Positions 62,945 to 63,278 of a DNA stretch of 64,000 bases are shown piece by piece. A program made the position numbers and the translations under genes. Source of the DNA: Lactobacillus sp. (GTDB lineage Bacteria > Bacillota > Bacilli > Lactobacillales > Lactobacillaceae); assembly GCA_022484695.1 (NCBI GenBank), contig JAKVKU010000007.1:124001-188000 (forward strand). The letters are read 5' to 3'. The first letter of the stretch is position 1. Each line of letters opens with the position of its first letter. The notes under the pieces were generated by a model. That model was not told the DNA's origin. It saw only the letters and a list, made by a program, of their open reading frames with translations, and did not search any database.

Positions 62945-62978
62945 TAAAAAAAGACGCGGCCGTTTGCGGGCTGCGTCT
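62945..62978 (-). terminator. Second leader terminator of the ABC operon
   Basis: Minus strand GACGCAGCCCGCAAACGGCCGCGTCTTTTTTT. Confidence 0.75.
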
Positions 62979-62983
62979 AGCAA

Positions 62984-63022
62984 CTAAAAAACCCGCATGA
63001 ATCGATTACCGATCCATGCGGG
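62984..63022 (-). terminator. Leader terminator of the ABC operon
   Basis: Minus strand ACCCGCATGGATCGGTAATCGATTCATGCGGGTTTTTTAG. Confidence 0.85.
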
Positions 63023-63080
63023 TAGAACTCAGCATAGATACGGTCTACATTTGGTAGACCGCAACAAACACGACCCACCG

Positions 63081-63143
63081 CTAGCGGCTTTGCCACCAGG
63101 CGGTGTTGGACAATGTATTCAATTGCAACATTGATTCGGTCAT
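63081..63143 (-). CDS. Leader peptide MTESMLQLNTLSNTAWWQSR (tandem Trp codons)
   Basis: Read by hand on the minus strand; short ORF ending before the hairpins and terminators that precede the TrpX-like gene. Confidence 0.8.
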   Translation of the reverse strand: MTESMLQLNTLSNTAWWQSR

Positions 63144-63278
63144 GTTTGAGTCCTGCTTTCTAATTGTTTTTTAACTTGATTTCATTAAACCATAAGCTTT
63201 TTTAGCTGTCAAGCCCAACCTGTTGCTCGTTCGTGGTAAACTATTAACTATATTTATGATTACCGGGAGGACGCAGTT

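Follow-up and report, generated by a model that had tools for sequence, protein, structure and literature searches.

A probable Trp-codon leader-peptide attenuator with two complementary terminators ahead of a predicted tryptophan importer in Agrilactobacillus, and its relation to the orphan trpB motif

The window, that is, the whole 64,000-nucleotide stretch of DNA analysed here, comes from the genus Agrilactobacillus and encodes an ABC importer on its minus strand. The genes are trpX, for the substrate-binding protein (SBP) of a Trp importer (61905-62918), a trpY-like permease gene (60988-61908; BPD_transp_2, Pfam PF02653) and a trpZ-like gene for the ATP-binding protein (60246-61016; ABC_tran, Pfam PF00005). 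The window TrpX scores 425 bits on the NCBIfam TrpX equivalog NF041285, whose cut-off of 390 is thereby met, and its closest solved relative is SP1069 of S. pneumoniae (PDB entry 3LFT, 239.5 bits), a structure that holds Trp. Gln273 of the window protein aligns with the Trp-selective Gln284 of SP1069; Gln284 permits Trp binding, and a Tyr at this position, as in CD0873 (Tyr279) and VC_1101, excludes Trp (PMC6816091). An earlier, sequence-only reading of the locus had predicted tryptophan as the substrate. The equivalog match and Gln273 support this prediction, and Trp transport nonetheless remains an inference from sequence alone, as there are no Trp-binding data for the window protein.

Upstream of trpX, on the same strand, lies a compact regulatory region. 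A promoter-like pair is visible by eye at 63184-63212, with a -35 TTGACA (63212-63207), a -10 TTTAAT (63189-63184) and a 17-nt spacer; it went uncalled in a consensus scan because the second hexamer departs from the scan rule. A Shine-Dalgarno (SD)-like AGCAGGA (63151-63157) is situated 7 nt upstream of the ATG of a 20-codon open reading frame (ORF), MTESMLQLNTLSNTAWWQSR, which runs from the ATG at 63143 to a TAG at 63081, ends in AWWQSR before the stop and contains tandem TGG (Trp) codons at 63098-63093. The sequence A' (CACCGC, 63100-63105) can pair with GCGGUG (63081-63076) and thereby sequester segment B, GGUGGGUCGU (63070-63079), the predicted partner of segment C when a ribosome stalls at the Trp codons. 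Segment C, GCGGUCUACC (63053-63062), can pair with either B or D, and segment D, GUAGACCGUAUCUAUGC (63032-63048), with either C or the 5' arm of terminator 1; a hairpin GGTCTAC..GTAGACC spans about 63063-63038. Terminator 1 (T1, 62991-63023), which a pattern scan finds, consists of arms F (63023-63012) and G (63002-62991) followed by a U run. The 5' half of terminator 2 (T2, 62952-62978) contains AGCCCGC (62972-62966), complementary to arm G; T2 is absent from the consensus-scan list, though it is visible and folds. The 158-nt leader as a whole folds at -70.4 kcal/mol (z = -7.2), and a trpX leader is kept in all four Agrilactobacillus genomes. Thus, the leader ORF, TGG codons, CACCGC/GCGGTG pairing, hairpin and two terminators described in the sequence-only reading were all located where it had placed them. 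That reading overlooked both the B:C helix and the antiterminator (D:F). The pairing on which it laid weight, CACCGC with GCGGTG, is seen solely within the genus Agrilactobacillus.

The earlier reading had proposed, as a check on its leader, a comparison of leaders upstream of this transporter. The comparison was run and the leader passed it across Lactobacillales: a Trp-codon leader is present at 74 of 80 named trpX loci, including those of Ligilactobacillus salivarius, Levilactobacillus brevis, Lentilactobacillus kefiri and Enterococcus raffinosus. The Levilactobacillus brevis leader reads MQLSSIELNGRWQSR. At trpX orthologs of other genera the same layout recurs: an SD and a short ORF are followed by a hairpin, then by a strand of the GTATCTATG type and by a terminator with a 5' arm complementary to this strand. 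The short ORFs end in WQSR, WQSQ, WWRR, WQNWRR or similar, directly before the stop codon. The Trp residue is followed by Gln in most leaders and keeps a near-fixed distance from the stop; 43 of 110 leaders have a single Trp codon only. Many leaders also share a recurrent (Q/E)LN a few residues ahead of the control codons, in the N-terminal half (63143-63107 in the window copy), for which no pairing role was found.

A permissive Rfam scan placed RF04312 exactly on the window hairpin and terminator. This family, the 'trpB motif' or SRC-39-1, was described by Narunsky et al. 2024 as a strong riboswitch candidate, an orphan whose ligand is unknown; it lies mostly upstream of an uncharacterized amino-acid-like ABC transporter, and classic attenuation was only 'not ruled out' (PMC11109978). 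More than 900 representatives have been published, and the motif is also reported in Fusobacteria. The match of the window trpX copy is weak, 19.8 bits against a gathering threshold of 59, and thus fails the cut-off, whereas the leaders of orthologous trpX genes in other genera score 59-74 bits and strong matches sit directly upstream of trpX. The window leader does have the anatomy of the family, namely a P1 hairpin, an antiterminator in its right shoulder, an intrinsic terminator and a downstream amino-acid gene. By anatomy and orthologous position, not by the score cut-off, we assign it to RF04312, as a member or as a diverged copy. The family was found in 140 of 250 Lactobacillales genomes and in 5 of 399 genomes sampled across the phylum, two of these five within Lactobacillales.

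An SD-preceded ATG ORF (8-40 codons, ending between -40 and +30 nt from the start of the RF04312 match) accompanies 122 of 124 matches, compared with 7.5% of dinucleotide shuffles, and Trp occurs within the last nine leader residues in 109 of 124 matches, compared with 0.7% of shuffles. These shuffles rule out a chance ORF, and the leader ORF is in this sense shown by sequence comparison. The Rfam model begins 3' of the ORF and of segments A and B, so the ORF may have been overlooked before. Separately, five matches without a leader look like false matches (L118, L123, L148, L067, L068), one is truncated by a contig end (L108) and one is doubtful (L153). Three further loci (L035, L038, L062) have a Trp leader with no recognised target gene in the stretch examined. 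L035, in genome G098, is the best RF04312 match of all (86.6 bits) and has neither trpX nor trpB in that stretch; unrelated sequence follows its terminator, possibly through a mobile-element insertion.

Covariation was assessed on 73 non-redundant leaders, aligned by sequence, by counting cells changed on both sides of a helix against the maximum of 500 shuffles. Helix B:C is 94% paired with 45 two-sided changes (shuffle maximum 17), C:D is 93% paired with 60 (24), D:F is 86% paired with 34 (24) and F:G is 94% paired with 53 (27). The outer helix A:E, 78% paired, has 55 two-sided changes compared with 37; its core is weak, with 70% paired. In a sliding control, pairing of B:C, C:D, D:F and F:G falls to about 21-53%. 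Because the shuffles ignore relatedness, we take these counts as support and not as proof. The helices share strands: B:C and C:D both use C, D:F and F:G both use F, and D enters three helices (C:D, D:F and A:E). By covariation the antiterminator and terminator pairings meet the requirement of mutual exclusivity, with an overlap that is small in Agrilactobacillus. The codon register is equally regular: segment B mostly starts 19-20 nt past the first control Trp codon and usually 1-8 nt past the stop codon, and in the window copy these distances are 19 and 4 nt. If the ribosome covers 12-13 nt past its A site, B would therefore be free with the ribosome at the Trp codon and largely covered with the ribosome at the stop. 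The alternative helices and the register are shown by comparison of sequences; what ribosome and polymerase do with them is inferred.

Taken together, these features make it very likely that the leader is a ribosome-mediated transcription attenuator that switches on trpXYZ when charged tRNA-Trp is scarce. On Trp starvation, the ribosome would halt at the two consecutive UGG codons and, reaching only about 12-13 nt ahead, would leave B free; B would pair with C, the unpaired D would capture F, the 5' arm of T1, and RNA polymerase would read through. When Trp is replete, a ribosome at the stop codon would cover B, so that C:D and then T1 form; after its release, the end of the ORF would help to keep the off state by pairing, as A:E in most species and as A':B in Agrilactobacillus, and T2 would back up T1 in this state. 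A Trp-codon leader-peptide attenuator ahead of a Trp importer, the central claim of the sequence-only reading, is hence supported as the best explanation. Stalling, termination and readthrough are inferred, as there are no expression, termination or binding data and none on Trp-dependent readthrough. Agrilactobacillus leaders retain almost no A:E helix, CACCGC:GCGGTG takes over the sequestering of B, and C:D and D:F overlap by a few nucleotides only, which makes these two helices less strictly exclusive than they are in Enterococcus-type leaders. When the window copy was folded at equilibrium with the ribosome-covered stretch masked, the off-state hairpins were favoured at every ribosome position and the on state was not produced; the on state must therefore be kinetic and arise during transcription. 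In classical attenuation, too, the on form arises during transcription.

A second terminator is present at most loci, and it is in part complementary to the first. Arm G pairs with the 5' half of its own T2 at a mean of -10.1 kcal/mol, compared with -6.75 kcal/mol for both swapped and shuffled partners (p = 9e-10 and 3e-11, respectively; n = 46). The control pairings of G with the T2 3' arm (p = 0.87) and of F with the T2 5' half (p = 0.55) gave no signal, and F with the T2 3' arm was weak (-6.3 kcal/mol, p = 0.046). T2 as a mere duplicate of T1 is thus rejected, as it would require F to pair with the T2 3' arm as strongly as G does with the T2 5' half. In the window, AUUCAUGCGGGU of G faces AGCCCGC of T2 at -13.9 kcal/mol, compared with a swapped mean of -7.2. 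Terminator calls were automatic, and the n = 46 test leaves out eleven loci that were removed by hand as misassigned; wrong assignments in the first automatic calls include L018, L117, L129 and L142. A smaller test on named species gave the same direction of effect (n = 27; p = 0.001 against swapped and 7e-8 against shuffled partners). It is only partly independent because a few wrong assignments (L196, L241) and close relatives of the window species were included. The G/T2 complementarity is thus shown; the relay that it suggests is inferred. Once D takes F, the 3' arm G would be freed and would pair with the T2 5' half, such that one antitermination event opens both terminators together.

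Across the RF04312 set, comparison of sequences shows that the leader codons match the gene that follows. Trp leaders stand ahead of trpX (102 loci) or trpB (5), and the Phe/Tyr leaders YYFSYFR, FYFSYFR and YYYGYFG ahead of aroE-aroF operons (4) or of SBP paralogs (4). Both synonyms are used at the Tyr and Phe control codons (TAC 11, TAT 15; TTT 14, TTC 2). The residue aligned to Gln284 is Gln in 104 of 104 SBPs behind Trp leaders and Tyr in all four of four behind Phe/Tyr leaders. A second selectivity site is less clean, with V, A, T or S under Trp leaders and S or D under Phe/Tyr leaders. Eight Phe/Tyr-leader SBPs score 316-350 on the TrpX model, below the cut-off of 390, and three that were compared with the PDB are nearer to the Tyr-binding 6HNI than to 3LFT. 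Separate SBP paralogs also follow pure Phe leaders, SFFFGFFR (L273, L280), and pure Tyr leaders, YYYGYYG (L279, L281), each ending at the stop; two such paralogs adjoin in one genome, G195. Arg leaders, NIRLRSR before the stop, occur at L265, L266, L267, L272 and L274, and the Arg version differs by codon change, from CGT TGG CAA AGC CGG to CGT CTG CGA AGC CGG. At the two of these loci that were domain-searched, the leader precedes an SBP_bac_3/permease fusion, followed in one case by a GlnQ-like ATPase gene; the permease part is nearest in the PDB to the amino-acid permease 4YMS. A third Arg-leader locus has an OppA-like peptide-binding protein downstream. These leaders suggest arginine-responsive control of uptake, again an inference from sequence alone. 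Outside Lactobacillales, one credible RF04312 match (L065) has the Phe-rich leader MNYINNFNLKIQIFFNNHFR, ending at a stop, upstream of a protein judged by eye to be similar to NSS-family transporters.

The window itself contains a second copy of the scaffold, on the plus strand upstream of tkt-aroF-aroB-aroD. Its YYWF leader, MRTSNLNPTTRYYWFS followed by a stop (37468-37518), precedes the best RF04312 match in the genome (37529-37658, 44.3 bits), which is also below the gathering threshold. The RNA part (37498-37651) scores 57.4 bits on R1, a covariance model of the whole element whose training set included this sequence. Arm G of this copy is strongly complementary to T2 (-14.3 kcal/mol, compared with -7.0 swapped). 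At E <= 1e-3, every Agrilactobacillus genome has exactly two R1 matches, at trpX and at tkt-aro (the latter where the downstream gene was available), and some other Lactobacillaceae have two to four; the Arg leaders described above are among these additional copies. The sequence-only reading had taken the trpX leader and the YYWF leader together as a sign of a general aromatic-responsive strategy; this is supported and proves broader than claimed, given the Phe-, Tyr- and Arg-codon versions in relatives. The window further contains an ordinary T-box leader (46994-47233) and a TPP riboswitch (51815-51922), both on the minus strand and both matching at Rfam gathering thresholds.

These data bear on two alternatives. 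In the first, the trpB motif binds a metabolite and acts as a riboswitch, as originally proposed, and the short ORF is incidental. Its ranking as a strong candidate rests on two hairpins, a terminator and a likely antiterminator (PMC11109978), and conservation is indeed high around GTATCTATG and in the arms of the terminator. However, the SD-preceded ORF lies 5' of the model in all but two of the matches; Trp, Phe, Tyr and Arg control codons track the downstream gene on one RNA frame; and conserved positions fall in the switching helices, alignment A2 having only four invariant columns. In the absence of ligand-binding data, we consider this view very unlikely. In the second, the leader would act as TnaC does: a ribosome held at the stop codon by tryptophan, or by its nascent peptide, would mask B, and the gene would stay off. 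The near-fixed distance from Trp to the stop and the Gln after Trp in most leaders are in its favour, and a ribosome arrested at the stop would favour C:D too. Yet the residues after Trp vary (WQSR, WQNWRR, WWRR, WWRG), the Phe, Tyr and Arg versions use the same frame as codon sensing predicts, and pairing of the ORF end with E accounts for part of the QSR conservation; this alternative, too, appears very unlikely. Codon-sensing attenuation remains the preferred reading, in which a swap of control codons would retarget the RF04312 scaffold. We lean, by a modest margin, towards the bolder proposal that the trpB motif should be read not as a riboswitch but as an attenuator scaffold of Lactobacillales that is programmable by codons (Trp, Tyr, Phe, Arg) and has a new terminator relay.

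A third alternative is a T-box that senses uncharged tRNA-Trp directly. A T-box controls trpX in S. suis (PMC9382623), and one sits at the same position in two genomes of the genus g37. The window trpX leader, however, gives no match to the T-box family (RF00230), though Rfam detects one elsewhere in the window, and other g37 genomes carry RF04312 instead. At the level of family models the T-box is refuted, and as an explanation of this leader it is all but excluded. Within g37, the T-box is upstream of trpX in L249 and L250 and RF04312 in L252, G101 and G178, which suggests that two tRNA-Trp sensing systems have been exchanged there at one gene. A single genus thus includes genomes with a T-box at trpX and genomes with a leader-peptide attenuator in its place.

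The interest of the locus is high because a mechanism is assigned to an orphan RNA motif and because a terminator relay is suggested. The assignment offers a testable answer to what the trpB motif senses, and leader codons, read as a code that predicts the substrate of the downstream transporter, could aid the annotation of look-alike ABC importers. If true, the two-terminator relay would be a new design element of attenuators, usable in synthetic circuits: one stalled ribosome would open two terminators in series, with low leakage and without a second sensor.

In the literature searched, RF04312 is mentioned only in PMC11109978, and, subscription papers excepted, no aromatic leader-peptide attenuator is described in Lactobacillales. 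The published trpB motif and the leaders described here have in common the P1 hairpin (C:D), the terminator and the genes (amino-acid ABC transporter, trpB), whereas the ORF, B:C, codon swaps and terminator relay are absent from the relevant sections of that publication. Leader-peptide attenuators are known in Firmicutes for His (PMC9413887, PMC2965389) and for branched-chain amino acids in S. aureus (PMC5794164); these likewise combine a codon-rich leader with a terminator in Gram-positive bacteria, but the amino acids sensed differ, and the literature searched does not connect these attenuators with the trpB motif. The SBP family of the window TrpX is common to C. difficile CD0873 (6HNI) and S. 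pneumoniae SP1069 (3LFT), in which Tyr279 versus Gln284 sets Tyr/Phe versus Trp binding (PMC6816091). The T-box of S. suis trpXYZ has the same target operon, senses tRNA-Trp charging and acts by transcription termination (PMC9382623), but does so by direct tRNA-RNA recognition and without a leader peptide. E. coli trpL also has tandem Trp codons, transcription-translation coupling and alternative antiterminator and terminator structures. Compared with trpL, the window system controls an importer, would free its antiterminator strand D by a separate B:C helix and not by the helix beside the ribosome, and has two terminators linked by complementarity.
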